Source of the DNA: Gemmatimonadota bacterium
Lineage (GTDB): Bacteria > Gemmatimonadota > Gemmatimonadetes > Gemmatimonadales > GWC2-71-9
NCBI GenBank assembly: GCA_016794825.1
Contig: JAEUJH010000694.1
Span: 1 to 42,741 of the forward strand
Length of the DNA: 42,741 nucleotides
Direction: 5' to 3'
The translations under genes were made by a program, and so were the position numbers. The notes under the pieces are model-generated. The model was not told the origin of the DNA. It saw nothing but the letters and a program-made list of their open reading frames with translations, and ran no database searches. The first letter of the stretch is position 1; every line of letters begins with the position of its first letter. Below, piece by piece: positions 13,266-27,589 of this stretch.

Positions 13266-14893
13266 GGTTCCGAACCCGGCTGGCCCTGGCGTTCGTCGTC
13301 GTGGCGTTAGGCCCGGTCCTGGTCCTCGGCGTGGGGCTTCGGCGCGAGATGCTGGCCCGGTTCGATCGGCAGGCCGACGACCGGGTGGCCGGGCTGGTGC
13401 GGCTGTTGCGCCAGCGGGTCGGCGACGATCTGGCGGTGGCCCGGTCGCGACTCGCTTCGCTGGCCCGTTCGCTCGAGGCCGACAACCGCTTCCGGCTGGC
13501 GGAGGCCGGCGGTGATCGTCGCTGGCTCCTCGACTGGGCCGCCGAGGCGATGCCGGCCACCGGCCTGGCCGTTCTCCAGCTCCACGAGGCGACCGGTCGG
13601 ATCCTGAGTTCGGGACAGTTCCGGAACGACTTCGACCGGGTCGCGCCAACCCTTCCCAACGCGGTCGGGTCGGACAGCGGCTTGGCCCTGGTCCGGGCTC
13701 GTCGGCCCGAGGGGTCGGTGCTGGCGCTGGCTACGATGGACTCGGTGCTCGTGGCCGGCCGCCGTTATGTCCTGGTCGGCGGTCTTCCCGTCGACTCCGC
13801 CCGCCTGGGGGCGCTCGCGCCGGATCCCGAGATCGCGGTGGCGCTCGAACTCGGACCGGTGGCCGAGGGCTCGGCGGTGGTCGCCGAGATTCCGCTCCGG
13901 TTCGGCGACGACGTCGGTGAGTCGGTGGGGCGGGCCAGTCTGGTCGTCCGTCGCGACCCTGGCCCGGCCCAGGCCCTGGCGCGGCGGCTCGACCGATGGA
14001 TCGTGGTGGCGGTGGCGGGCACGCTCGTCGCCGCGCTGTTGCTGGCGCTCTGGCTGGCCCGCCGGGTGGCGCAGCCGATTGCCGACCTGGCGGCCAAGAC
14101 CGAACGGATCGATCTCGAGCGACTCGATCAGGGCTTCGCGACCGATCGGCCCGATGAACTCGGGGCGCTGTCGCGCCTGCTCGACCAGATGACGAACCGC
14201 CTCCGGCTCGGCGCCCAGCGCCTCCGGGAGGCCGAGCGTCGCGCCACGGTGGGCGACTTGGCGCGCCAGGTCAATCACGACATCAAGAACGGCCTGACCC
14301 CGATCCGGCACGTGGTCCGCCATCTGGTGGACACCGCGGAGCGCGAACCCGAGCGGCTGGTGCCGATCCTGCTCGAGCGGCGGGCCACCCTCGAGTCGAG
14401 CGTCGACTATCTCGACCAGCTGGCGCGGAGCTACGCCCGACTGGCGCCGTCTCCGACCGGGGCCCGGGCCGATGCGGCCGCCATCCTTCACGAGATCGCG
14501 GCGGCGCGCCGGTCGGAGCGGGTGGCCGTGCCGGTCCGGATCGAGGGCCCGGTGCCACCCGTGGCGGCCGATCCCCTGGTCCTGCGGCGGATCGTCGAGA
14601 ATCTGGTGGCCAACGCGGTCGATGCCCTCGAGGGCCGCGCCGGCACCATCGTGCTCGAGGCGGCCAGCGCGCCCGCGGGGCCGGTGCGGATCAACGTCGC
14701 CGATGACGGTCGCGGGATGACAGCGGCCGAACTCGAGCGCGCTTTCGACGACTTCTTCTCGACCAAGCCCGGTGGCACGGGGCTCGGGCTGTCGGTGGTT
14801 CGGCGGCTGGTCAGTGACGTTGGCGGATCGATCCGGGTCGAGACCGGGCCGGGGCAGGGCGCCACTTTCTTCCTGGAGCTTCCCGCGGCATGA
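13262..14893 (+). CDS. Membrane sensor histidine kinase (NtrY/NtrB-like)
   Basis: 543 residues from ATG 13262, which overlaps the lipoprotein stop by 4 bp. TM helix 1 (about 5-27) and TM helix 2 (about 246-268) bracket an extracytoplasmic domain of about 215 residues. A HAMP-like linker follows (269-320). The dimerisation box carries His339 in RQVNHDIKNGLTPIRHVV, the HDxKN form found in NtrY/NtrB-type kinases. The ATPase domain shows the N box (ENLVANAVDAL), the G1 box (VADDGRGMT), the F box (FDDFFSTKPGGTGLGLSVVRRL) and a G2 loop near the end. It should phosphorylate the sigma-54 activator encoded next, with a 4-bp overlap. The lipoprotein encoded just upstream may deliver the signal to the periplasmic domain (inference). 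A rare TTA leucine codon sits in the CGTTAGGC octamer at 13305-13312. Confidence 0.88.
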   Translation: MRFRTRLALAFVVVALGPVLVLGVGLRREMLARFDRQADDRVAGLVRLLRQRVGDDLAVARSRLASLARSLEADNRFRLAEAGGDRRWLLDWAAEAMPATGLAVLQLHEATGRILSSGQFRNDFDRVAPTLPNAVGSDSGLALVRARRPEGSVLALATMDSVLVAGRRYVLVGGLPVDSARLGALAPDPEIAVALELGPVAEGSAVVAEIPLRFGDDVGESVGRASLVVRRDPGPAQALARRLDRWIVVAVAGTLVAALLLALWLARRVAQPIADLAAKTERIDLERLDQGFATDRPDELGALSRLLDQMTNRLRLGAQRLREAERRATVGDLARQVNHDIKNGLTPIRHVVRHLVDTAEREPERLVPILLERRATLESSVDYLDQLARSYARLAPSPTGARADAAAILHEIAAARRSERVAVPVRIEGPVPPVAADPLVLRRIVENLVANAVDALEGRAGTIVLEAASAPAGPVRINVADDGRGMTAAELERAFDDFFSTKPGGTGLGLSVVRRLVSDVGGSIRVETGPGQGATFFLELPAA

Positions 14894-16239
14894 GCCGAAT
14901 CCTGGTCGTGGACGACGTCGCCCCGATGGCGATGCAATACCGGTACGATCTCGAACGGCTCGGCGGGCACCACGTCGTCACCGCCACCAACGGGCCGGCC
15001 GCCCTCGAGATCCTCGACCGCGACGACATCGACTGCGTCATCCTCGACCTCGAGATGCCGGGCATCGACGGGTTCGAAGTCCTGCGCGAGATTGGCCACC
15101 GCGGCATCGAGACCCCGGTCATCGTCTACACCGGCACGGGCAACTACGACCGTTGCCTTCAGGCGGTGCGCCTCGGCGCGGCCAGCTTCATCGACAAGGC
15201 CGAGCCGATGGAACGAGTGGCGCTCGAGGTGGCGCACGCGATCGAGCGGCATCGGCTGAGGCGAGAGGTAGCCGCGCTCGAGACTCGCCTGGCGGAATCG
15301 TCACTCCTCGGTCGGAGCGCCGCCATGACGCGCCTCCGGGAAACGATCGGCCGGGTGGCGCCGGTGCCGAGCCCCGTGCTGATCCAGGGCGAGAGCGGCA
15401 CCGGCAAGGAATTGGTGGCGCGGGAACTCCACCGACTCGGCGGCCGCCCCACGGGTCCGTTCCTGGCGATCAACTGCGGCGCGCTGCCCGAGAATCTGGT
15501 CGAGAGCGAGCTGTTCGGTCACGAAAAGGGCGCCTTTACCGGCGCGGTGGGGAGCCGCCAGGGCGCGTTCGAGGCGGCCAACGGAGGCACGCTCTTCCTC
15601 GACGAGATCGGCGAACTGCCGGTGGCCGCCCAGGCCAAGCTGCTCCGGGTCCTGGAGCAGCGGGAAGTGACTCGACTGGGCGCCAACCGGCCGCTTGCCG
15701 TGGCGGTTCGGGTCGTCGCGGCCACCAATCGCGATCTCGACCGGATGGTGGCCGACGGCGGCTTCCGGGAGGATCTCCTCTATCGACTCAATGTCCACGT
15801 CGTGACCGTCCCGCCGCTTCGGGATCGCCCCGAGGACATCGCGTTTCTGGCCGAGCGGTTCCTGGATCAGGTCTGTCGGCGGTTCGGGGTCCTTCCCAAG
15901 CGACTGGCCGGCGAGGCCCGCGAGCGGCTGGCGGGATACGACTGGCGACGGAACAACGTCCGGGAACTCCGCAACGTGATCGAACGGGCCGTCGTCCTGG
16001 CCGACGGCGACGTGATCCGGGTCGAGCATCTGCCTCCCAACCTCGGCGCTGCGGCACCCGATCCGACCGGCGACGACATGTCATTCCAGGCCCAGCGGAC
16101 CCGAGCGGAGCGGCAGATCGTGCTCGCGGCGCTGGAGCGGCACGACTGGCACGTGACCCGGACCGCCGAGTCCCTCGGTCTGGCCGACCACGCGAGCCTG
16201 CTCAAGATCATGCGGCGGCTCGACATTCGGCGCGGTTGA
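14890..16239 (+). CDS. NtrC-family sigma-54-dependent response regulator
   Basis: 449 residues. Receiver domain 1-120 with the acidic pair Asp8/Asp9, phospho-acceptor Asp53 (VILDLEMPG) and Lys103 (FIDKAEP). The AAA+ domain (about 140-365) has Walker A GESGTGKE (167-174), the sigma-54 contact loop GAFTGA (214-219), Walker [11 protein letters not shown] (233-242) and an arginine-finger region [11 protein letters not shown]. The C-terminus is a Fis-type helix-turn-helix ([26 protein letters not shown]). All parts of a working sigma-54 activator are present, so at least one promoter of the GG-N10-GC type should be its target. A candidate lies at 16451-16464 before the next gene, with an inverted repeat about 150 bp upstream of the expected start. 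Confidence 0.93.
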
Positions 16240-16331: not shown

Positions 16332-16450
16332 CCGCCGGCCGCCCCATGGTGGCCCGCCGGACACGGTCGGCGCCAGCCTCGTTTCCGCCGGCGCGCCTAA
16401 CTCTTTCATTCTTCGTCGGTTCCAGCCTCCTCTTCTGCGGTGTCGCGGCC

Positions 16451-16464
16451 GGCCGTCGGCTTGC
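16451..16464 (+). promoter_or_regulatory. Candidate sigma-54 promoter (GGC...TTGC)
   Basis: GG at 16451-16452 and GC at 16463-16464 are separated by exactly 10 nt, within CGGCCGTCGGCTTGCG. The GGC and TTGC cores match the -24/-12 consensus, but several flanking positions do not. The leader to the TPR gene would be about 50 nt. A sigma-70-like alternative, TAACTC, starts at 16398. Confidence 0.25.
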
Positions 16465-16525
16465 GATACCGGGTGGCGACCGCAGGCTCACGGCGCCGGT
16501 CCCGCCATCACTCGAGGAGGAAGCG

Positions 16526-17530
16526 ATGTCCGTCACCCGTTCGTTCCGTCGTCAATCCGTGCTGGCCGCCAGCGTTCCGGTGGCCCTGCTGCTGGCGGCC
16601 GCGTGCGATCCGCCGCGGCGCAAGAGCGGGGAGGAAGCCAAGGTGCCGGAGGCGCCGCCCGTTGCCCCGGCCACCGCGATTCCCGCCGGCGGTCTTCCGC
16701 CCCGGGTGGTTCCGACCGAATCGGAGCCGGCCATCACCGGCACCGGCGAGGACGCGTACCGAGCCGGGCGGTTCAAGGAAGCCAAGGTGCTCCTGGCCGC
16801 GGAGCTGGCCAGCCGACCTGAAGACGCCGGTCGGTTCCATCTGCTGGGCCTGGCGGCATGGAAGAGCGGCGACTGGCGAGCGGCCGAAAAGGCCTTCGAT
16901 CGAGCCATCGCGCTCGAGCCTCGCGGGGTGAGGAGCTACCTCGGCGCCGCCCGGGTCCTGCTCGATCTGGGCCGTTCTCAGGAGGCCCTCGAACGGGTCG
17001 AGCACGCCGTGCGGCTCGATTCGACTTCGGTGGACGCGATCCGGGTCCAGGCTCGGGCCCAGGCCAAGCTTGGCCACGTGGACGATGCCGTCGCCAGCTA
17101 CCGGCGGGCGCTGTTGCTCGACGAGCAGGACGTCTGGACGCTCAACAACCTCGGCGTCCTCTATCTCGACCTGGGTGACCCGGATGCCGCGCTCGGCCCC
17201 TTGGCCCGGGCCGTTCAGCTCCGGCCCGAGTCGCCGGTGTTCCAGAACAACCTGGGCGTGGCGCTCGAGCAGGACGGCTACCCGTTGGCCGCTCGGCGGG
17301 CCTTCGAAGCGGCGGTGCGGGCGGACAGCGGCTACGCCAAGGCGGTCGCCAACCTCCAGCGGATCGGCGCGGTGGTGACCGACTCGACCCGGGAAGGGCC
17401 CCTGAGTCTGGCCAAGGTGGCCGACCTGTTCCGACTCGAAATCGGGATGTGGCGCGACTCCGCGGTCAAGCTCGAGCCGATCGACTCGGTGGCGCCGCTC
17501 CGCCCCGATTCGACTCCGCCCCGGTTCTAA
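16526..17530 (+). CDS. TPR-repeat lipoprotein
   Basis: 334 residues from ATG 16526, fixed by a strong GAGGAGG ribosome site 7-8 nt upstream. The signal peptide ends in the lipobox LLLAAAC (cysteine about 27), followed by a charged and proline-rich linker to about 70. From about 74 to 280 there are six or so tetratricopeptide repeats, for example DAYRAGRFKEAKVLLAAELA, FHLLGLAAWKSGDWRAAEKAFDRAIALEP and WTLNNLGVLYLDLGDPDAALGPLARAVQL. TPR lipoproteins act as protein-protein scaffolds at the outer or inner membrane. The partner is unknown. It follows the kinase-regulator operon by 286 bp, in which a sigma-54-like promoter and inverted repeat may make it a target of that regulator. A hairpin terminator follows. 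Confidence 0.85.
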   Translation: MSVTRSFRRQSVLAASVPVALLLAAACDPPRRKSGEEAKVPEAPPVAPATAIPAGGLPPRVVPTESEPAITGTGEDAYRAGRFKEAKVLLAAELASRPEDAGRFHLLGLAAWKSGDWRAAEKAFDRAIALEPRGVRSYLGAARVLLDLGRSQEALERVEHAVRLDSTSVDAIRVQARAQAKLGHVDDAVASYRRALLLDEQDVWTLNNLGVLYLDLGDPDAALGPLARAVQLRPESPVFQNNLGVALEQDGYPLAARRAFEAAVRADSGYAKAVANLQRIGAVVTDSTREGPLSLAKVADLFRLEIGMWRDSAVKLEPIDSVAPLRPDSTPPRF

Positions 17531-17750: not shown

Positions 17751-18416
17751 CTAACGGCGCCACTCGCGGACCACCCGCGCCGTCCGGATGAAGTCGAGGC
17801 GGGGGAACTGGCGGGCGAGGTAGGCGTTGCCGGCCACCCGGATCGAATCCTGGGACGGTCCCGGCTTCCGGTCGGCGCGAGTCCCGCCGTACTCGAACGT
17901 GAGCGAGTCGGCGGCCGCCATCCCCTCGAGGACCTCGCCGATCGGCGGGAAGCCGAACGTCGTGGTCGTGTCGAGCCGGGGATTGTCGACCAGGTTCAGG
18001 TAGAGCTGGACCGACCGGGTGTTGGGCCCGCCGCGGGCAAACGCGATCCGGCCCCGGGTGTTGGAAGCCTGGACCGGCTCGTCGGGGATGCTCCGACCCT
18101 CCCAGGCGCCGTTGACCCGGGGGTCGCCCGAGAGGCCCCACTGGGCCACGAAGCCGCCGACCACCCGGAAGAACCGGGCATCGTCGTAGTACCGGTGCTT
18201 GACCAGGTAGTAGACCCGATCCGCGCCGAGCGGAGACCAGGGGCGGCGGACCCGGAAGACGATCGGGCCCCGGCTCGACTCGAGGCGCACGTCGAAGCTG
18301 TCAGGCCCGATCCGGGTCAGGCGCTCGGCGCGGGGGCTCAGGAGGGGGTCGCCGCGCGAACAACTGGCGAGTGCGGCAACCGCGGCCAGCACCAGGGCGG
18401 GGGAGAGGGGGCGCAT
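17751..18416 (-). CDS. Cyclophilin-type peptidyl-prolyl isomerase lipoprotein
   Basis: 221 residues from ATG 18416; a TTG 27 nt upstream would only add non-signal residues. The signal peptide MRPLSPALVLAAVAALASC carries a lipobox ending at Cys19, so this is a periplasmic, membrane-tethered protein. The cyclophilin fold is visible in YYDDARFFRVVGGFVAQWGLSGDPR (canonical FHRVxxxFxxQxGD), NTRGRIAFARGGPNTRSVQLYLNLVDNPRLD and FGFPPIGEVLEGM. The active-site arginine of FxRV and the glutamine are present, so it is probably an active prolyl isomerase aiding folding in the envelope. The stop codon is inside a GCCTAACG octamer (17749-17756). TACCTTGA upstream (18440-18447, minus) is the likely -10. Confidence 0.9.
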   Translation of the reverse strand: MRPLSPALVLAAVAALASCSRGDPLLSPRAERLTRIGPDSFDVRLESSRGPIVFRVRRPWSPLGADRVYYLVKHRYYDDARFFRVVGGFVAQWGLSGDPRVNGAWEGRSIPDEPVQASNTRGRIAFARGGPNTRSVQLYLNLVDNPRLDTTTTFGFPPIGEVLEGMAAADSLTFEYGGTRADRKPGPSQDSIRVAGNAYLARQFPRLDFIRTARVVREWRR

Positions 18417-18441
18417 GACGGTCTCGGTCGAGGAACGCCTC

Positions 18442-18447
18442 AAGGTA
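18442..18447 (-). promoter_or_regulatory. Putative -10 box (TACCTT) of the cyclophilin gene
   Basis: The minus strand reads ATTACCTTGA, the same ten bases found before the old yellow enzyme gene. It is 25 nt before the ATG at 18416. The divergent plus gene has TACCAT at 18502-18507 as its own candidate. Confidence 0.4.
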
Positions 18448-18535: not shown

Positions 18536-19663
18536 ATGCGCCCAATCGTTGCCGTGGTGCTGGGCCTCCTCGTCGCGCCGTTGCCTCAGTCGCGGGCCCA
18601 GGCTCCCGCCGAGTTTGCCGCGCTCATCGCCCGACTCTCGGAGCCGGACGGGGCGTTCCACAGCGACAATCTGGTCTCGAACGAAACCTCCTACCTCCAC
18701 GTCTTCAGCGCGTTCCGCGACCTGGGCGTCAAGGGCGGCGCCTACCTCGGGGTCGGACCGGAGCAGAGCTTTTCGTACCTGGCGGAAATCGAACCGGAGA
18801 TCGCGTTCATCGTCGACATCCGGCGCGATAACCTCCTGCTCCACCTGCTGCTCAAGGCGATGTTCGCGACCGCGGGCAACCGGCTCGAGTACCTCTGCCT
18901 CCTGTACGGCCGCGCCGCCCCCGCGGATCTGGCCCTGTGGACCGACCTGCCGCTCGAGTCGCTGCTCGAATACCTCGACGCCCGATCGGCCGATTCGGTC
19001 GTCCACGTCGCCAATCACCGTCGGCTGATGGCGATGGTGGGGTCGTTCGGGGTCCCGCTCACCGATACCGACCGGGCCACCCTCCGGCGGTTCCACTACG
19101 AGTTTGCCCGGGCGGGGCTCGACGTCCAATACACCACCCAGGCGGGGCGGATGTGGCGGGCCATGCCGACCAACCGGGACCTGTACCTGGCCACGGACCT
19201 CGACGGTGTCCAGGGGAGCTACCTCGCGTCCGAAGACCGGTGGCGCCGGGTCCGCGACCTCCAGCGCCGCCATCGGATCATCCCCGTCACCGGCGACCTG
19301 GCGGGGCCCAAGGCGCTCCGGGCCATCGGGCAGTACCTGACTCAAACCCGGCGGACCGTCTCGGTCTTCTATGTGTCGAACGTCGAGCAGTATCTCTTCC
19401 GCAACGACGTCTTTCCGGCTTTCGTGGCCAACACCCGGACCCTGCCGACCGGTCCCAACAGTCTCCTGGTCCGGAGCCTGGTCGGGGGCGGCCGCTGGAG
19501 CGGGGGATCGGGGTCGTCGCCGGGCCTGGTGAGTCGGCAGCGGGCCCAGACCTTCAAGCGATTCCGCGAGATCACGGCCACCCCGGACAGCGTGAGCTAC
19601 CGCGCCCTGGTGGCGGACGCCTTCGAGCTTCGGCTCCGGACCGGACCCCCGGTCGACCGTTAG
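18536..19663 (+). CDS. Secreted Rossmann-like protein, paralogue A
   Basis: 375 residues from ATG 18536, where a signal peptide starts (MRPIVAVVLGLLVAPLPQSRAQ). I do not know a function. A conserved block at about 40-150 (SDNLVSNETSYLHV, GVKGGAYLGVGPEQSFSYLAEI, then AFIVDIRRDNLLLHLLLKA) looks like a nucleotide or S-adenosylmethionine binding Rossmann unit: a GxGPE loop after the first strand and an acidic residue (VDIRRDN) at the end of the second. A methyltransferase-type fold is plausible, but a secreted location is odd for one. Other conserved blocks are DLYLATDLDG, SYLASEDRWRRVR, VTGDLAGPKALR and FYVSNVEQYLFR. A close paralogue lies at 22858-23973 in the opposite direction. The stop codon is in a CGTTAGGC octamer. 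Confidence 0.75.
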   Translation: MRPIVAVVLGLLVAPLPQSRAQAPAEFAALIARLSEPDGAFHSDNLVSNETSYLHVFSAFRDLGVKGGAYLGVGPEQSFSYLAEIEPEIAFIVDIRRDNLLLHLLLKAMFATAGNRLEYLCLLYGRAAPADLALWTDLPLESLLEYLDARSADSVVHVANHRRLMAMVGSFGVPLTDTDRATLRRFHYEFARAGLDVQYTTQAGRMWRAMPTNRDLYLATDLDGVQGSYLASEDRWRRVRDLQRRHRIIPVTGDLAGPKALRAIGQYLTQTRRTVSVFYVSNVEQYLFRNDVFPAFVANTRTLPTGPNSLLVRSLVGGGRWSGGSGSSPGLVSRQRAQTFKRFREITATPDSVSYRALVADAFELRLRTGPPVDR

Positions 19664-19700
19664 GCTGATCGGGCGGTCGAGCCCGGGTCGGTCCCGCGGT

Positions 19701-19706
19701 TATCTT
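19701..19706 (+). promoter_or_regulatory. Putative -10 box (TATCTT) giving a leaderless transcript
   Basis: TATCTT ends 5 nt before the ATG of the CoA ligase gene (spacer CCGAC), the same geometry as at 10757-10768. No ribosome site is visible between the preceding stop codon and this ATG. A -35 is weak (TCGAGC at 19677-19682). Confidence 0.45.
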
Positions 19707-19711
19707 CCGAC

Positions 19712-21835
19712 ATGACGTTCGCCTCTCCGCTCGACCCGATCCTCCGGCCGCGCTCGATTGCCGTCGTCGGCGCGTCCCGGACCCCCGGCACGATCGCGCA
19801 CGAACTGGTGGCCAGCCTGGTCCGGTGCGGATTCGTCGGCCCGGTGTTCCCGATCAACCCGAACGCCAGTTCGGTCTGCGCCATCAAGGCCTACCCGACC
19901 ATCCGGGCCGTGCCCGATCCGGTCGACCAGGCCGTGATCGTGGTGCCCAAGGAACGAGTCGAGTCGGTGGTGCGCGAGTGCGCCGACCACGGGGTCAAGG
20001 GCCTGGTGGTGATCTCGGCCGGGTTCCGGGAAATCGGCGGCGAGGGGGTGGAGCGGGAGCGGCGGCTGACCGCGTTCGTCCGGGAGCGCGGCATCCGGAT
20101 GGTCGGCCCCAATTGCATGGGGGTCCTCAACGCCGACCCGGCGGTGTCGATGAACGGCACCTTCTACCCCAACCTCCCGCCGTTCGGCCGCGCCGGTTTC
20201 GTGTCGCAGTCCGGCGCCATGGGGCTCTCGGTGCTCGACTACGCCCGGGAGTACGGGATCGGCATTGCCCAGTTCGTGTCGGTGGGCAACAAGCCCGACG
20301 TCAGCGGCAACGATCTGCTCGAGGCCTGGGAGCACGATCCCGGCATCGACTCGATCCTGATGTACGTCGAAAGCTTCGGGAACCCCCGCCGGTTCCTCGA
20401 GATCGCGTCCCGGATCACGCGGAAGAAGCCGATCATCGTGGTCAAGTCGGGCCGCTCGCGGGCCGGGGCCCGGGCCGCGTCGTCGCACACCGGGGCCCTC
20501 GCCGCGAGCGACACGGCCGTCGACGCGATGCTCACCCAGGCGGGTGTCCTCCGGGCCGGCAGTGTGGGCGAACTGTTCGACCTGGCAATGGCCTTCTCCG
20601 GCCAGCCACTCCCCCGGTCGCGGCGGACCGCGGTGCTGACCAACGCGGGCGGGCCCGGCATCCTGGCCGCCGACGCGCTGGAACGTCACGAAGTCGACAT
20701 TCCCGAGCTGTCGCCGCCGACGGTGGAGCGGCTCCGGCCGCTGTTTCCCGAGTACGCCTCGATCCGCAATCCGCTCGACATGATCGCCTCGGCCACTCCG
20801 CCCGGTTACCGGACGGCGCTGGCGGCGCTGCTCGAGGACCCGGCGGTCGATTCCGCCGTGGCGATCTTCGTCCCGCCGCTCGGCGTGAGTCAGGGCGACG
20901 TGTCGGAGGCGATCGCGGCCGCGGCGATAACCCGGCCGGACAAGCCGGTGCTGGCCGTGCTGATGGGACACGAGGGACTCCCGGCCGGCAAGGCGGGCCT
21001 CCACGAGGCCGGGATCCCGGCCTACATCTTCCCGGAATCGGCGGCGCGGGCGCTGGCCGCCATGTGTCGGCAGCGCGAGTGGAGCGAGAAGGCCGTCCCC
21101 GTGGTCGAGACCCTGCCGGTCGATCGGCCGGCTGCGGAGCGGATCATCGCCGAGGCGGTGGCGGCCGGGACGCGGAAGCTGCCGGAGGCCGCCGCCCTCG
21201 ACCTGCTGGCGGCGTACGGGGTGCCGGTGGCCCGGGCGCGGCTGGCGCGGACGCCGGAGGAATCGGCGATCATCGCGGCGGAGTTCGGCGGGCTGGTGGC
21301 GCTCAAGATCGTCGCGCCGGCCATCATCCATAAGAGCGACGTCGGCGGCGTCGTGCTCGGCCTGTCCGGCCCGGCCGTGGCCGAGGGTCACCGCCGGATG
21401 ATCGCCACTGTGACCGAACGAGTGCCCGGCGCCGAGATCACCGGCGTGCTGGTGCAGGAGATGTTGCCGAGCGGCCGCGAGATGATCGTCGGCGGCACCC
21501 GCGACGCGTCGTTCGGGCCGATGGTCATGTTCGGGCTCGGCGGCGTCTTCGTCGAGGTGCTGAGCGACGTGGTGTTCCGGATGGCCCCGATTGCCCGGTC
21601 GCAGGCGGGTGAGATGATCACCGGCCTCCGCGGGGCGAAACTGCTTGCGGGGGTCCGGGGCCAGCCGCCGGCCGATCGGCGGGCCATCGAGGACGTCCTG
21701 CTTCGGGTGTCGCAGCTGCTGGTCGACTTCCCGATCGTCGCGGAACTGGACCTCAACCCGCTGCTGGTCTACCCGGATCGGGCCGTGGCGGCCGACGCCC
21801 GGGTCGTGCTGGGGTTGCCGGAGGAGGCTCGCTGA
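19712..21835 (+). CDS. Acyl-CoA ligase, ADP-forming (acetate-CoA ligase type)
   Basis: 707 residues with the fused alpha-beta layout of NDP-forming acyl-CoA synthetases. The CoA-binding Rossmann domain is at 1-135 (RPRSIAVVGASRTPGTIAHEL). Two succinyl-CoA-ligase-like domains follow (about 145-460), with the phospho-histidine His259 in SSHTGALA. The C-terminal ATP-grasp domain spans about 480-700 (LVALKIVAPAIIHKSDVGGVVLGL, GAEITGVLVQEM, DLNPLLVYP). Such enzymes interconvert acyl-CoA + ADP + Pi and free acid + ATP, usually for energy conservation or acid activation. The length is typical. The gene lies between the two secreted paralogues, and its TGA overlaps the ATG of the DUF1460 gene by one base, so they are co-expressed. 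Which acid is used cannot be told from sequence. Confidence 0.93.
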   Translation: MTFASPLDPILRPRSIAVVGASRTPGTIAHELVASLVRCGFVGPVFPINPNASSVCAIKAYPTIRAVPDPVDQAVIVVPKERVESVVRECADHGVKGLVVISAGFREIGGEGVERERRLTAFVRERGIRMVGPNCMGVLNADPAVSMNGTFYPNLPPFGRAGFVSQSGAMGLSVLDYAREYGIGIAQFVSVGNKPDVSGNDLLEAWEHDPGIDSILMYVESFGNPRRFLEIASRITRKKPIIVVKSGRSRAGARAASSHTGALAASDTAVDAMLTQAGVLRAGSVGELFDLAMAFSGQPLPRSRRTAVLTNAGGPGILAADALERHEVDIPELSPPTVERLRPLFPEYASIRNPLDMIASATPPGYRTALAALLEDPAVDSAVAIFVPPLGVSQGDVSEAIAAAAITRPDKPVLAVLMGHEGLPAGKAGLHEAGIPAYIFPESAARALAAMCRQREWSEKAVPVVETLPVDRPAAERIIAEAVAAGTRKLPEAAALDLLAAYGVPVARARLARTPEESAIIAAEFGGLVALKIVAPAIIHKSDVGGVVLGLSGPAVAEGHRRMIATVTERVPGAEITGVLVQEMLPSGREMIVGGTRDASFGPMVMFGLGGVFVEVLSDVVFRMAPIARSQAGEMITGLRGAKLLAGVRGQPPADRRAIEDVLLRVSQLLVDFPIVAELDLNPLLVYPDRAVAADARVVLGLPEEAR

Positions 21836-22839
21836 TGGTTGCCCGAAGCCGAGGGTTCGCGATCTGGCTGGCGGTCACCACTGGGGCGTGCGGCCCGGCG
21901 GCTGGCGCCGTTCCGGTCGGAGGCACCCCTGCTGGCGGGGCCGTTCCGGTGGAGGGCCCTCCCCCGGTCAGTGCGGTTCCTGTCGACGGGGCCGCCGCCA
22001 CCCGGGATACCATTCCCGGAACGCCGTGGACCGTCGAGGACTGGCGGATCTTCTCGAACCGGATTCGGTGGGCCAAGGCGGAGGGCCTCGATCGCGTTCC
22101 GCTTGGCGAGGCGATCGCCCGGCTCGGTGTCACGTTCGTCGGGGCTACCTATCGGCCGGCCACGCTGGAGGTTCCCGGGCCCGAGCGCCTGGTCGTCAAC
22201 CTCCGGGAACTCGACTGCGTCACCTTCGTCGAGAACGTGCTGGCGCTGACCCGCTTCCTGCGGCACGATGGCGTGGCACTGCTGGACGATCCGGCCGCGG
22301 CTCGGACCCGGTACGAGGGGTATCTGCGCGACCTGCGGTATCGCGGGGGCCGGCTCGTCGGCTACTCGTCACGCCTCCATTACTTCTCGGAATGGCTGGC
22401 CGACAACGAACGCCGGGGCGCTGTTCGGCAACTGACTCGCGAACTCGGCGGGGTGGAGGATCGGGAGCCGATCACGTTCATGTCGACCCACCCCCAGTCC
22501 TACCGGCAGTTGGCCGACTCGGCGGTGCGCCTCGAGATCGAGCGGATCGAGCGGGAGCTGAATCGGGGGCCGGGGCGCTGGGTCCTTCCGGAAGCCGGCA
22601 TCGCGGCGGCGGCCGCCGGGATCCGCGATGGCGACGTGATCGCCGCCACCTCGACGGTCGGCGGGCTGGACGTGGCCCACACCGGGTTCGCGCTCTGGCG
22701 GAACGGCCGCCTCCACCTGCTCCACGCGCCGCTGGTCGGGAAGAGTGTCGAGATCTCCGAACTCCCGTTGGCCGATCGGATCCTCGGTCTGGCCGGGCAG
22801 GACGGGATCATGGTGGCCCGGCCGCTCGAACGGCCGTAA
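21835..22839 (+). CDS. DUF1460 (N-acetylmuramoyl-L-alanine amidase-like) protein
   Basis: 334 residues. A short hydrophobic N-terminus (FAIWLAVTTGAC) could be a lipoprotein signal, although threonine at -3 is not ideal. It is followed by a Pro/Gly linker with three AVPV-type repeats (about 25-52). The DUF1460 domain (about 65-330) has the papain-like Cys128 in LRELDCVTFVEN, then GYSSRLHYFSEWL, and the likely catalytic histidine in DVAHTGFALW. DUF1460 members are NlpC/P60-related and cleave peptidoglycan peptides or amide bonds. The ATG (21835) shares one base with the upstream CoA ligase stop. The convergent paralogue B ends 18 bp downstream. Peptidoglycan turnover next to a CoA ligase suggests recycling of wall-derived acids, which is speculative. 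Confidence 0.82.
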   Translation: MVARSRGFAIWLAVTTGACGPAAGAVPVGGTPAGGAVPVEGPPPVSAVPVDGAAATRDTIPGTPWTVEDWRIFSNRIRWAKAEGLDRVPLGEAIARLGVTFVGATYRPATLEVPGPERLVVNLRELDCVTFVENVLALTRFLRHDGVALLDDPAAARTRYEGYLRDLRYRGGRLVGYSSRLHYFSEWLADNERRGAVRQLTRELGGVEDREPITFMSTHPQSYRQLADSAVRLEIERIERELNRGPGRWVLPEAGIAAAAAGIRDGDVIAATSTVGGLDVAHTGFALWRNGRLHLLHAPLVGKSVEISELPLADRILGLAGQDGIMVARPLERP

Positions 22840-22857
22840 TCAGGGGCCGGAGGCCGC

Positions 22858-23973
22858 CTAACGTCCCGGCGGGACCGGCGGGTTCTCGACGGTGGCGTCG
22901 TTGGCCACGCCCCAGTAGGACACCTGATCGCCGGCGATGGACACGTGCTGGAGAAACCGCGCCACCGTGTGGACCTGCTGGGTGCTGAGGTGGCCCGACG
23001 GCGCGGCGGGTTGGCCAGCGCCCCGTCCGAACCAGCTCCGGATCAGGACGCTCCGTGGCTCGGTCGGAAGCGCCTTGACGTTGGCGACGAAGGCCGGAAA
23101 CGTCCCCCCTCGGAATAGATACGACTCCACGTTCGACAGATAGAAGGCCGAGACCGTTCGGCCGGTCTCGGTCAGGTAGCGGCCGATTTCGCGCAGGGCC
23201 TTGGGGCCGGCCAGGTCGCCGACCACCGGGATGATCAAGTCTTCCCGTTCCATGGCCCGGACGATGCGCCACCGGTCCTCGGTGGCGAGGTAGCTGACCT
23301 GGGCGCCGGTCAGGTCGGTGGCCAGGTAGATGTCGCGGATCGACGGAAACCACGGCCGGAACGAGCGGCCCCGGTTGGTGTAGCGGAGTTCGAGGCCGGT
23401 GGTGGCGAATTCGTCGTGGAACCGCCGAATCGTGGCTCGATCCTCGGTCGAGAGCGGCACGCCGAACGACGTCACCTTGGCCATCAGGGCCCGGTGGGAT
23501 CGTTCGTGGAGCGGACGACTCACCGGGGTCGAGTCGATCCAGCCGAGCAGGTCGGTCAGCGGCCGGTCGGTCCACGCGTGGAGGTCGGGAGGGACCGGCC
23601 GGCCGAACAGGAGGCAGAGATACTCGAGCCGGTTGGCCGAACTCGAGAAGATGGCCTTGAGCAGCAGGTGGAGCAGGAGATTGTCCCGCCGGATGTCGAC
23701 GATGAAGGCGATCTCCGGGCGGATCTCGGCGATGTAGGAAAAGCCCTGCTCGGGGCCGACCCCGACGTACGCGCCGCCCTTGATCCCGCGTTCCCTGAGG
23801 GTGCCGATGACGTGGAGGTAGGAGGTCTCGTTGGAGACGAGGTTGTCGCTGGGGAAGAACCCGGGGCCCTCCGAGAGCTGGCTGACCAGGGCCGGGAAGT
23901 CGGGCCGGACCACCGGCCGAACCGGCCCGTGGACGATGAAGCCGACGGCCAGGATCGCCAGTGAATGCCGCAT
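22858..23973 (-). CDS. Secreted Rossmann-like protein, paralogue B
   Basis: 371 residues from ATG 23973 (signal peptide MRHSLAILAVGFIVHGPVRP). An in-frame GTG at 24015 preceded by TATATTC could be a leaderless alternative start. It shares the same conserved blocks as paralogue A (18536-19663): DNLVSNETSYLHV, KGGAYVGVGPEQGFSYIAEI, a 19-residue identical run ending in LLLHLLLKA, NRLEYLCLLFGR, DIYLATDLTG, GDLAGPKALREIG and FYLSNVESYLFR. By eye about 70% of positions match in the first 110 conserved residues and roughly half elsewhere. The GxGPE loop and VDIRRDN suggest a Rossmann or methyltransferase-like core. Function unknown. The stop codon lies in a GCCTAACG octamer, as in paralogue A. Confidence 0.75.
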   Translation of the reverse strand: MRHSLAILAVGFIVHGPVRPVVRPDFPALVSQLSEGPGFFPSDNLVSNETSYLHVIGTLRERGIKGGAYVGVGPEQGFSYIAEIRPEIAFIVDIRRDNLLLHLLLKAIFSSSANRLEYLCLLFGRPVPPDLHAWTDRPLTDLLGWIDSTPVSRPLHERSHRALMAKVTSFGVPLSTEDRATIRRFHDEFATTGLELRYTNRGRSFRPWFPSIRDIYLATDLTGAQVSYLATEDRWRIVRAMEREDLIIPVVGDLAGPKALREIGRYLTETGRTVSAFYLSNVESYLFRGGTFPAFVANVKALPTEPRSVLIRSWFGRGAGQPAAPSGHLSTQQVHTVARFLQHVSIAGDQVSYWGVANDATVENPPVPPGR

Positions 23974-24082
23974 CCGGGCCAGGCCCGGGAGCGGGCGACT
24001 CAGCAGGGTCGTCACAGTCGCTGAATATACGGAGTTGGGGGGCGTTCCGGCGCCGCCCCCCACGGCCAGGCCCCGCCGCGAC

Positions 24083-25465
24083 TCAGAAGGAGCCGAAGGC
24101 CGTCCCGAGTATCAGGGCCACGATCAGGGCCAGGATCGGTCCGGCCACGCTGACCATGAAGATGTCCAGGTACGATTCCCGATGACCGAGCCGACAGATT
24201 CCGAGCAGGGTAATGATCGCCCCGTTGTGGGGAAGTGAATCGAGCCCGCCCGAGGCGATCGCCGCGATCCGGTGGAGCAGGTCTGGCGAGATGCCCGCCG
24301 CCGTGCCGAGTTCGAGGTAGCGCGCGCCAAGCACGTTGAGCGCGATGCTCATCCCGCCCGAGGCCGAGCCCGTGATCCCGGCCAACACGTTCACCGAAAT
24401 CGCCTCGGAAATCAGCGGGTTGGAGGGCCAGAGGCCCATGATGAAGCCCTGGATGACGCCGAACCCGGCCAGCGACGCGATGACCGATCCGTAGCCGACC
24501 TCCGACGCGGTGTTGAAGATCGGCAGGAGCGAACTCATGGTGCCGTCGTTGACCGACGTCTTGAGATCCCGCCACCGCGAGCGGTTGAGCAAGACCACCA
24601 GGACGACCGCGATCGTCAGCGCCACGATCAGCGACCAGATGCCCCGGACGTCGTTCAGGCTCACCCCGCCGAATTTCTTTTCCGCCAGGTAGGCCGCGTC
24701 CATGCTCGGGATCACGAACCGGGTCACCGTCCAGTTGATCACGATGACCGCCACGATCGGAAGCAGCGCGACCCAGAGCCCCGGGCCCCGCTCCGCCTGC
24801 GGCGACTCGGCCCGGTCCATGGGGTGATCGCCGTAGCCCTCGCCGGCGGCGCGGGCCGCGCGGCGGTCCAACCACCAGAGTCCGAAGGCCAGCATGACCA
24901 ACCCGGCCACGACGCCGATGCCCGGGGCCGCGAACGTGTCGGTTCCGAAGAAGGGCATTGGAATGGCGTTCTGGACGGCCGGCGTTCCGGGAAGCGCCGT
25001 CATCGTGAACGTGGCCGCCCCGAGGACGATCGAACCCGGGATCAGTCGCTTGGGCAGCCCGCCCTCGCGGAACAGGACGGTGGCGATCGGATAGACGGCA
25101 AACGCCACCACGAACACCGAGACGCCGCCGTAGGTCAGGATGGCGCACGACAGAACGATCGCGAGGATGGCCCGCCGGGCGCCCAGGCGGTTGACGATGC
25201 TCCGCGCGATCACGGCGGCGGCCCCCGAGTCGCTCATCAAGCGGCCGAAGATGGCCCCGAGCAGAAAGAGCGGGAAATACTTGACGAGAAAGCCGCCCAG
25301 GCTCGCCATGAAGATCTGGGTGTACGTGGCCAGGAGCCGGGTTTCGCCGCTGGCCAGCGCGGCCAGCAGCGCCAGGCCCGGGGCCAGGATCAGCACGTTG
25401 ATGCCACGGTACGCCAGGTACATGAGCAACGCGAGCGAGATCAGGATGCCGAGAACACCGATCAT
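24083..25465 (-). CDS. GntP-family permease
   Basis: 460 residues with about twelve hydrophobic segments and the features of the gluconate:H+ symporter (GntP) family. The N-terminus is MIGVLGILISLALLMYLAYRG. FLLGAIFGRLMSDSGAA is the usual GxxxGxLxxxSGAA segment, with ILTYGGVSVFV and GSASGGMSIALN later. GLDSLPHNGAIITLL near the C-terminus is the second re-entrant signature seen in 3-hydroxybutyrate/gluconate transporters. It should import a small organic acid with protons. The ATG overlaps the stop of the histidine kinase gene by 4 bp, so the permease is the last gene of a regulator-kinase-permease operon. That arrangement suggests the two-component system controls uptake of the acid it senses, though this is inference. 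Confidence 0.88.
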   Translation of the reverse strand: MIGVLGILISLALLMYLAYRGINVLILAPGLALLAALASGETRLLATYTQIFMASLGGFLVKYFPLFLLGAIFGRLMSDSGAAAVIARSIVNRLGARRAILAIVLSCAILTYGGVSVFVVAFAVYPIATVLFREGGLPKRLIPGSIVLGAATFTMTALPGTPAVQNAIPMPFFGTDTFAAPGIGVVAGLVMLAFGLWWLDRRAARAAGEGYGDHPMDRAESPQAERGPGLWVALLPIVAVIVINWTVTRFVIPSMDAAYLAEKKFGGVSLNDVRGIWSLIVALTIAVVLVVLLNRSRWRDLKTSVNDGTMSSLLPIFNTASEVGYGSVIASLAGFGVIQGFIMGLWPSNPLISEAISVNVLAGITGSASGGMSIALNVLGARYLELGTAAGISPDLLHRIAAIASGGLDSLPHNGAIITLLGICRLGHRESYLDIFMVSVAGPILALIVALILGTAFGSF

Positions 25466-26913
25466 GTCGAGGCCGGGGAGTGGGGAGGGACGGAGGATTC
25501 GGGAGCTGGCATTTCCAGGAGGAACGACTTCCGGCCGGCGGCCGGTTCCTGCTCGAGGCGGAGCGTGCCGCCGTGGATGGTGGCCACCCAGCGGACGATG
25601 GCCAGGCCCAATCCGCTGCCGGGCACGTCATTCCGGAGTCGGACGAATCGCTCGAAGATCCGCTCGACGGCGTCGTCGGGGATCGGCGGACCCCAGTCGG
25701 TGACTCGGACCCAGCTGGTTTTCCGGGGTCCGTCGCCCTCGCCGACGCTCACCTCGACGTCGCTGCCGGGGGCGTAGAGCAGCGCGTTCTCGATCAGGGC
25801 CAGGACGGCCCGCTCGATCAAGGTGGCGTCGCCGCGGACGGGGGTCGCGTCGAAGCGTCCGACCGCGATCCGGCGGCCGGCCGCCGCCGGCAACCGGCTG
25901 GCCCGGACGATGGCATTGCTGGCCGCGTCGTCGAGGAAGATCACCGCGGTGGATTCGAGGTCCTCGGCGGTCTCGCCCCGGGCCAGGAGGAGCAGGTCGC
26001 CGACCAGCTGGCCGAGGTGCTGCGCCTCGCGTCCCAGCCGCTCGAGCACGGCGACCTGCGTCGGACTCGCGGCTTCGAGCCGGGCGGTGTCGATCTCGTT
26101 CCGCAGAATGGCCACCGGGGTGCGGAGCTCATGCGCGGCGTCGGCAAAGAAGCGGCGCTGGTTGGCGGCGGTGTTCCGCTCCTGGTCGATGGCGGCCTCG
26201 AGGCGGCTCACCAGGGCCACGAAGGCGGTCTGGAGTCGACCCACTTCGTCGCGCTCGGTGGGGAGCGGGACCGGCTGGAGCTCCGGGTGCTCACCCCGGA
26301 TGACCGCTTCTCGGAGCCGGTCGGCCATGGCGGCCATGGCCGTCACCGGCGTCAGGACCCGGCGCGACACCACCAGGGCGACCGCGGCTCCCGCGGCCAG
26401 GCTTGCCAGCACGCCCAGGAAGAGAACCGCCCGCAGGTCTCGAAGCCGCTCCTCCATCGGCACCAGCGTCAGGCCGACCGCCAGCTGGAATCCCATTGCC
26501 AGCTCGGTCGTGGCCACCCGGCTCGGGCCGTTGGGGGCCATGACGGTAATGGGGCCGCCGTTGGGCGAGGGCAGGGACACCCGCCAGAGGTCGGGCGCCG
26601 CCTCGAGGGGCCGGCTCTGGGCGAGGCGGGTGCCGCTCGGGTCGACCGCCACGACTGATCGATCGCCGAAGACGAGTTCCGAGACGATGTGGACGACGGT
26701 GGCCTGGGGCGTGCCGTACTCGGCGAGTTCCGAACTGAAGAGCGCGCGCGCCGCGCCGAGGGAGTGGTCGAGGGTCTGGTCGACCTCCGCGCGCCAATGC
26801 CGCTCGAGGACGGCATAGAGAGCCGCCGCGCCAACGGCGAGGAGGAGGGCAAAGGTCGCCGCGACGGCGACGGTCAGACGAACGCGGAGACCGCGGAGTG
26901 GGTAGCTAGCCAT
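25462..26913 (-). CDS. Sensor histidine kinase (EnvZ/QseC type)
   Basis: 483 residues from ATG 26913, overlapping the response regulator stop by 8 bp. TM helix 1 (11-33) and TM helix 2 (about 162-183) enclose an extracytoplasmic sensor of about 125 residues. A HAMP linker follows with RRVLTPVTAMAAMADRL. The HisKA box FFADAAHELRTPVAIL carries His261, and the ATPase domain has ALIENALLYAP, WGPPIPDDAVERIFERF and GSGLGLAIVRWVATIHGG. The usual DxGxG G1 box is changed to VTDWGPPIPDD, so the first glycine position is kept but the second is replaced by Pro; ATP binding is probably retained. Its partner is the OmpR-type regulator just upstream. The GntP permease start overlaps its stop by 4 bp. Confidence 0.9.
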   Translation of the reverse strand: MASYPLRGLRVRLTVAVAATFALLLAVGAAALYAVLERHWRAEVDQTLDHSLGAARALFSSELAEYGTPQATVVHIVSELVFGDRSVVAVDPSGTRLAQSRPLEAAPDLWRVSLPSPNGGPITVMAPNGPSRVATTELAMGFQLAVGLTLVPMEERLRDLRAVLFLGVLASLAAGAAVALVVSRRVLTPVTAMAAMADRLREAVIRGEHPELQPVPLPTERDEVGRLQTAFVALVSRLEAAIDQERNTAANQRRFFADAAHELRTPVAILRNEIDTARLEAASPTQVAVLERLGREAQHLGQLVGDLLLLARGETAEDLESTAVIFLDDAASNAIVRASRLPAAAGRRIAVGRFDATPVRGDATLIERAVLALIENALLYAPGSDVEVSVGEGDGPRKTSWVRVTDWGPPIPDDAVERIFERFVRLRNDVPGSGLGLAIVRWVATIHGGTLRLEQEPAAGRKSFLLEMPAPESSVPPHSPAST

Positions 26914-27589
26914 CGGTGGCGTCGGGTCGCAAAACGTACCCGGCGCCACGGACAGTGTGCAATAGAGGGCGCCCGCCGGCGACGTCGAGCTTCTTCCGGA
27001 GGCGGGCGATGTAGACGTCGATGATGTTGGACGCGGGGTCGTAGTTCTCGTCCCAGACGTGGGCGCTGATCAAGGCCCGACCCACGACCTGGCCCGCGTG
27101 CTTGCCGAGGAACTCGAGGAGCGAGAACTCCGTGGTGGTCAGCTCGATCCGGTGCCCGGCCCGGGTCGCGGTCCGGCTGGCCGGGTCGATCCGAAGGTCG
27201 TCGATTTCGATGGCGGTCGGCCGGATGGTCGGGTGGCGCCGTTCCAGAGCCCGCAGGCGGGCCTGGAGTTCGTCGAGCGCGAACGGCTTGACCAGGTAGT
27301 CGTCCGCCCCGGCGTCGAGGCCCTCGACCCGATCCGGGATCGAGTCGCGGGCCGTGAGGGCCAGGATGATGACGTTGGCGCCGGTCTTCCGGAGGGTTCG
27401 CGCCAGGTCGAGGCCGGAACCGTCCGGCAGGTTGAGATCGAGGACCAGCGCGTCGTACGGGTCGAGGCCGAGCTTGCTGAGCGCCTCGGCCACCCCGCCG
27501 GCCGAATCGACCGCGTGGCCCCCTTGGCGGAGACCGCGGGTCAGCGAGTCCCGGAGCTGGGGCTCGTCCTCGACGACCAGGATTCTCAT
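26906..27589 (-). CDS. OmpR/PhoB-family response regulator
   Basis: 227 residues. Receiver domain 1-115 with acidic residues at 8-9, phospho-acceptor Asp51 (LVLDLNLPDGSG), Thr79 region (LALTARD) and Lys101 (DYLVKPF). The winged-helix DNA-binding domain (about 130-222) includes LTTTEFSLLEFLGKHAGQVVGR, VDVYIARLRKKL (read here as DVYIARLRKKLD) and HTVRGAGYVLRP, all typical of the OmpR/PhoB group. It is the first gene of the regulator-kinase-permease operon. TAGGTTTC at 27642-27649 (minus), preceded by TTAACT, gives a plausible promoter with a leader of about 48 nt. Its own operon is the most likely target. Confidence 0.94.
   Translation of the reverse strand: MRILVVEDEPQLRDSLTRGLRQGGHAVDSAGGVAEALSKLGLDPYDALVLDLNLPDGSGLDLARTLRKTGANVIILALTARDSIPDRVEGLDAGADDYLVKPFALDELQARLRALERRHPTIRPTAIEIDDLRIDPASRTATRAGHRIELTTTEFSLLEFLGKHAGQVVGRALISAHVWDENYDPASNIIDVYIARLRKKLDVAGGRPLLHTVRGAGYVLRPDATDG

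Follow-up and report, generated by a model that had tools for sequence, protein, structure and literature searches.

What might a pair of paralogous, apparently exported proteins do with a core resembling that of S-adenosylmethionine (AdoMet)-dependent methyltransferases? The question is raised by two genes, here called A and B, in a 42,741-nt stretch of Gemmatimonadota DNA (contig JAEUJH010000694.1, assembly GCA_016794825.1; the whole stretch is referred to as the window). Methyltransferase enzymes are normally located inside the cell; in A and B, a pocket of this type would lie beyond the cytoplasm, in a place where no AdoMet would be expected. The reading preferred here, to which we give a probability of roughly 0.55, is that both work in the envelope, binding a small ligand in this conserved, methyltransferase-type pocket. 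The source is a 5.4 Mb draft genome in 994 contigs, and its closest relatives in the sequence collection are Gemmatimonadota. Their positions are:

18536..19663, plus strand: paralogue A, a DUF7790 (PF25046) protein with a Sec-type leader, MRPIVAVVLGLLVAPLPQSRAQA (from the PF25046 match, a conserved ATG and an AlphaFold2 model)
22858..24015, minus strand: paralogue B, a DUF7790 protein (from the PF25046 match, with the probable start taken from comparison with a sister genome)

A preliminary description of this DNA, made from its letters, had noticed two paralogues with long identical blocks and a GxGPE loop, for which it could name no function. The paralogy is confirmed: A and B are 58% identical over 368 residues (E 3e-134), with identical blocks such as FIVDIRRDNLLLHLLLKA, and with GVGPEQ in both. 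A family can, however, be named. Profile searches match both proteins to DUF7790 (PF25046), A at 4.1e-30 (105.5 bits) and B at 3e-31 (109.3 bits; Pfam cut-off 23), and the same profile is matched by 79 of 79 aligned relatives. Matches to NF047518 (LIC_10091 family lipoprotein, an NCBIfam equivalog) are at 50.2 bits for A and 46.2 bits for B, far below its cut-off of 350. DUF7790 includes a Leptospira protein of solved structure and, by NCBI name, a Leptospira lipoprotein. Since a named family with a solved member matches them, A and B are not an unrecorded kind of protein, but a new pair in a catalogued, uncharacterised family. Because DUF7790 carries no assigned function, the searches did not yield the match to a characterised family that the preliminary description had set against itself.

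The AlphaFold2 model of A was built on an alignment (A1) of 26 rows, in which A and B are joined by 24 of the 26 other distinct loci (the two omitted, L012 and L025, did not pass the motif filter); its predicted local distance difference test score (pLDDT) is 87.3 and its predicted template modelling score (pTM) 0.88. A Foldseek search with this model gave a single entry with E < 0.001: 6ulo (two chains, best E 1.4e-12), the solved structure of an uncharacterised Leptospira interrogans protein, which is likely to be LIC_10091/LipL40 itself. VIA-align superimposes the model on 6ulo with Z 26.4 over 281 residues, and a profile search against PDB sequences also picks 6ulo (1.4e-20). With the DUF7790/LIC_10091 family and 6ulo, A and B thus have in common an above-cut-off profile match, the fold over those 281 residues, and the SNE, GVGxEQ, Asp, SN-E-Y and Arg elements (6ulo retains SNE, GVGSEQN, the Asp, SN-E-Y and a late Arg). 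They differ in the low identity of A to 6ulo (17%), in scoring below the equivalog cut-off, and in lacking the lipobox of LIC_10091 family lipoproteins, there being no Cys in the leader of either.

The other 49 of the 50 entries listed by VIA-align have Z from 8.3 to 9.4, with FPP/PSPP methyltransferases and NNMT nearest after 6ulo; all are titled as methyltransferases or S-adenosylhomocysteine complexes except one, a vaccinia RNA polymerase assembly (8p0j). The core of the model runs b1-aA-b2-aB and, after some 130 residues of inserted helices, b3-aC-b4-aD-b5, which is the class I methyltransferase order, with DSSP assigning six strands of at least 3 residues, not seven. In a library of viral structures there was one match with E < 0.001, an uncharacterised fragment from Yasminevirus, a giant virus (A0A5K0UB36); the remaining matches were weak, and several of them are DNA methyltransferases. 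Likeness to class I AdoMet-dependent methyltransferases consists of a Rossmann core, the strand order, and a conserved Asp ending strand 2. A and B differ from these enzymes in their predicted export and in the large helical insertion between aB and b3, and DUF7790 as a whole in a motif I without its third Gly and in the lack of a profile match. A methyltransferase-type fold for A and B is nonetheless well supported by the model, and the earlier suggestion of a methyltransferase-like core in an exported protein gains support from the model, the fold comparison, and the leaders of relatives.

A larger alignment (A3) has 79 rows, of which 68 come from the 80 loci compared (the best 80 of 440), 9 from further loci, and 2 are A and B. 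Left out were L040, L053, L079, L080, L082, L085, L087, L089, L094, L095, L101, and L110, judged by eye to be truncated, broken or near-duplicate. The conserved motifs are GGaYiGVGPdQnFsYiA, iAfivDiRRdN, PvvGdlaG, and SNVE.Yl, together with an N-terminal DNliSNE; the GxGPE and DIRRDN motifs singled out in the preliminary description are both conserved here, the first as GVGP[ED]Q in most rows, in place of the glycine-rich GxGxG form of motif I. Twenty positions are invariant, 11 of them in the loops after strands 1, 2, 3, and 4 of the model. In paralogue A, the first of these regions is:

18740..18784, plus strand: motif I of paralogue A, AYLGVGPEQSFSYLA, covering strand 1 with the following loop and helix (from the invariant positions and DSSP)

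Within it V49, P51, Q53, and Y57 are invariant in 79 of 79 rows (model numbering, in which residue 1 is the codon at 18608).

Leaders were counted in 76 of the 80 loci (L053, L089, L098, and L101 were left out). A 10-residue stretch with mean hydropathy of at least 1.6 is found upstream of the domain in all 76, and one of at least 2.0 in 74. Among neighbouring genes, 261 of 646 reach 2.0 within the first 75 residues, a rough control, since it includes membrane proteins and its start calls are crude. A well-placed lipobox is present in about 15 of the 76 relatives, according to a by-eye reading of 21 pattern hits. Export looks general among the sampled relatives, and a location of A and B outside the cytoplasm is supported to the extent that leader sequences can predict it. 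Signal peptides had been proposed for both proteins. That of A stands, as a classical leader ending AQA behind an ATG that is kept in the sister genome; for B, which has a 10-residue hydrophobic stretch, a cleaved signal is not established.

The start of B also needs revision. The ATG at 23973, from which it was first read, corresponds in the sister genome to CTC, a codon for leucine. Fourteen codons upstream, at 24015, both genomes have an in-frame GTG, and because this codon is kept and the ATG is not, B more likely starts there. The sequence TATATT, conserved in the window and the sister genome, lies eight bases before this GTG (24013-24029, minus strand), which makes a leaderless start plausible.

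As a working model of ligand binding, A and B would be exported and then reside in the periplasm or at the surface of the envelope, a location with which the surface exposure described below for the homologue LipL40 agrees. A pocket at the strand ends, made up of GxGP[ED]Q, the Asp of VDIRR, VxGD, and SNVE, would bind a small ligand, over which the helical insertion might close together with the SNE motif near the N-terminus. In favor of such a site, 11 of the 20 invariant positions fall in the four cofactor-site loops, which make up 32 of 351 residues (hypergeometric P 6e-8). Rather than the AdoMet of the cytoplasm, the ligand would most likely be some compound that the proteins encounter beyond the inner membrane, and they may possibly be catalytic. 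Identifying the ligand would reveal either new extracytoplasmic chemistry or the re-use of this fold for another compound, and the conservation of the pocket residues opens this to direct testing.

Several observations weigh against ligand binding of this kind. The methyltransferase Z of about 9 is little above the 7-8 that is the tool's typical best for models without a clear match, and likeness of fold to methyltransferases does not in any case show function. At an E threshold of 10, none of the 79 members matched a methyltransferase profile in Pfam or NCBIfam, in searches where the HMMER filters drop most matches above 0.1; besides DUF7790/LIC_10091, the only families found at this threshold were matched by one or two members. 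The third Gly of GxGxG is replaced by E or D, and 6ulo has Ser and Thr in place of P51 and R72, two of the residues that are invariant in the alignment. The four cofactor-site loops were chosen by us after the model had been seen. None of the tools showed a ligand, a clear cleavage site is lacking in B, and the binding accounts for LipL40, discussed next, conflict.

The fold might instead have been recruited as a ligand-free scaffold, with A and B serving as surface adhesins or structural lipoproteins that have no small-molecule site. We consider this unlikely, although the Leptospira literature offers some support: passages of one paper describe LipL40 as surface-exposed on live Leptospira cells, by antibody immunofluorescence, and as binding plasminogen in vitro (PMC2889836). 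The extracytoplasmic site, with no obvious supply of AdoMet, would also be easier to understand for a protein of this kind. The binding evidence is not consistent, however, the same protein appearing in passages of another paper as a non-binding control (PMC2935396). A table in a review (PMC10781872) assigns elastin binding to LipL40 with reference to a 2010 paper; the latter is probably PMC2935396, in the available passages of which elastin binding does not appear. More generally, the strong cross-phylum conservation of the cofactor-site loops is unexpected for a scaffold, and Gemmatimonadota and Acidobacteriota of soil and water would have no evident host ligand of such a kind.

The opposite possibility is that A and B are AdoMet-dependent transferases after all, related to BtaA/DUF3419, which would draw on AdoMet reaching the envelope to modify its lipids, glycans or proteins. 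DUF3419 (PF11899), which we take to be the BtaA family of diacylglycerol 3-amino-3-carboxypropyl transferases, was brought into the comparison by the spacing of its motifs. An alignment of that family (A4) took in 21 of 24 loci (L159 and L165 are partial, and L166 is below the family cut-off). A DUF3419 model has a pLDDT of 90 and the same order of elements as DUF7790, with a helical insertion at the same place. Its alignment to 6ulo spans 228 residues (Z 13.4, root-mean-square deviation 3.7), the longest of the 50 alignments listed, the next being 188. This likeness in structure, and the retention of the cofactor-site loops, including the Asp that ends strand 2, are what such transferases would be expected to show. 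The same Z of 13.4 is, however, tied with those of ordinary methyltransferases, so the structural hint toward DUF3419 is suggestive at most.

At the level of sequence, the two families lack a significant profile match. Comparison of DUF7790 with six DUF3419 rows gave P 0.26; a permissive alignment with 22 rows was colinear over 288 columns, with P 0.11 and 0.065 in the two directions. In the controlled comparison, the scores of 20.7 and 23.2 fell below those of the reversed alignment (24.0 and 25.3), compared to a mean of 15.8 and maximum of 25.8 for 100 column shuffles in one direction, and 16.4 and 22.0 in the other. They are also level with the 20.8 obtained against DUF7790 by a comparison set of 29 ordinary methyltransferases, a set that DUF3419 itself matches at E 4e-7. 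No Pfam match to DUF3419 was found among the 79 DUF7790 members. None of the 50 entries listed for the DUF7790 model is named as an aminocarboxypropyl transferase, which excludes nothing. The sequence link between DUF7790 and DUF3419 was rejected, its scores being no better than the reversed control.

To our knowledge, it is not established that these bacteria have free AdoMet beyond the cytoplasm, which further counts against a transferase, and we regard one as quite unlikely. A more specific proposal, and a more doubtful one again, is that an exported branch of AdoMet-type transferases, in part displayed at the surface, has a common ancestor with BtaA and acts on lipids or proteins of the envelope in Gemmatimonadota, Acidobacteriota, and Leptospira; if this were true, AdoMet or a substitute cosubstrate would have to be available there. 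A literature search on periplasmic, secreted or extracytoplasmic methyltransferases and on extracellular AdoMet, in a collection that mostly does not extend to subscription journals, had no title on DUF7790 among those listed.

Between A and B, which are on opposite strands, as first described, and face each other, are two further genes:

19712..21835, plus strand: coenzyme A (CoA) ligase, a single-chain NDP-forming acyl-CoA ligase (CoA_binding, Succ_CoA_lig, and ATP-grasp_5 domain profiles)
21835..22839, plus strand: AmiA-like (PF07313) amidase-like protein with a leader (PF07313, 4.4e-39)

The best NCBIfam match of the ligase is NF045493, at 590.5 bits, under its cut-off of 1300. PF07313 is presumably the former DUF1460, the name under which the amidase was first described. 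The ligase stop codon TGA (21833-21835) and the amidase ATG (21835-21837) have one A in common, and because of this one-base overlap the translational coupling proposed for them is plausible.

That all four genes form one cassette, for example in envelope recycling with the CoA ligase activating a released acid, is very improbable: the same order in a sister genome (G004, locus L033) and the one-base overlap favor it, but relatives of the ligase and amidase occur at just 1 of the 80 DUF7790 loci, that of the sister, and the amidase is present in all 6 genomes of the genus, in the other four of which neither the ligase nor DUF7790 is found in the 1.5 kb fetched on either side of it (one side only in G001). 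A functional cassette was accordingly rejected, the neighborhood recurring in a single sister genome, and the four-gene unit of the preliminary description is not upheld. Clustering of neighboring genes found no better partner, the commonest cluster being in 6 of 80 loci; a home-made open reading frame (ORF) caller was used, which found the anchor in 76 of the 80, and since contigs are often short, partners more than 6 kb away or on other contigs would escape it. In a Pfam scan of same-strand neighbors (49 of 50 used, L101 left out), the commonest family was DUF72, in 4 of 49. There is probably no fixed partner gene for A and B, which as ligand-binding proteins would act independently, with the ligase and amidase as probable bystanders.

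In a tree of DUF7790 genes, A pairs with the A of the sister genome and B with its B, each with full support, and A is closer to other Gemmatimonadota genes than to B. As both copies have orthologues in the sister, and A is nearer to those other genes, the tree places the A/B duplication before the split from the sister species. DUF7790 was found in 47 of 200 Gemmatimonadota genomes searched and in 20 of the 61 nearest (the genome of the window is in both sets), often in multiple copies. These counts are lower bounds, because a short DUF7790 fragment in one genome (G003) was detected with a protein query only. The best 80 of 440 loci also include Acidobacteriota, one Latescibacterota, and one labeled Deltaproteobacteria; DUF7790 is a patchily distributed bacterial family.

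Multiple copies take several forms. In two Acidobacteria loci (L062, 545-6386, and L093, 3150-6981), a second DUF7790 copy lies within about 2-4 kb on the opposite strand, in divergent orientation. One genome (G079) has two DUF7790 genes on the same strand of one contig, within 4 kb, and another (G171) has about five. The DUF7790 gene of Bacterium HR08 (L101:6001-6078) has an in-frame stop a few residues past the SNE motif, and is either a pseudogene or affected by a sequencing error.

Elsewhere in the window, two minus-strand ORFs with a four-base overlap (13307-14491 and 14488-15252) have no Pfam match at E up to 0.001, and may not be genes, or may belong to unnamed families. Upstream of A are a tetratricopeptide repeat (TPR) protein (16346-17530, plus strand) and a cyclophilin-type peptidyl-prolyl isomerase with a lipoprotein-like leader (17751-18443, minus strand). 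Upstream of B, on the minus strand (24083-25465, 25462-26949, and 26906-27589), the genes for a GntP-type permease and a histidine kinase overlap, with a response regulator adjoining; together these are possibly a sensor system for a carboxylate transporter.

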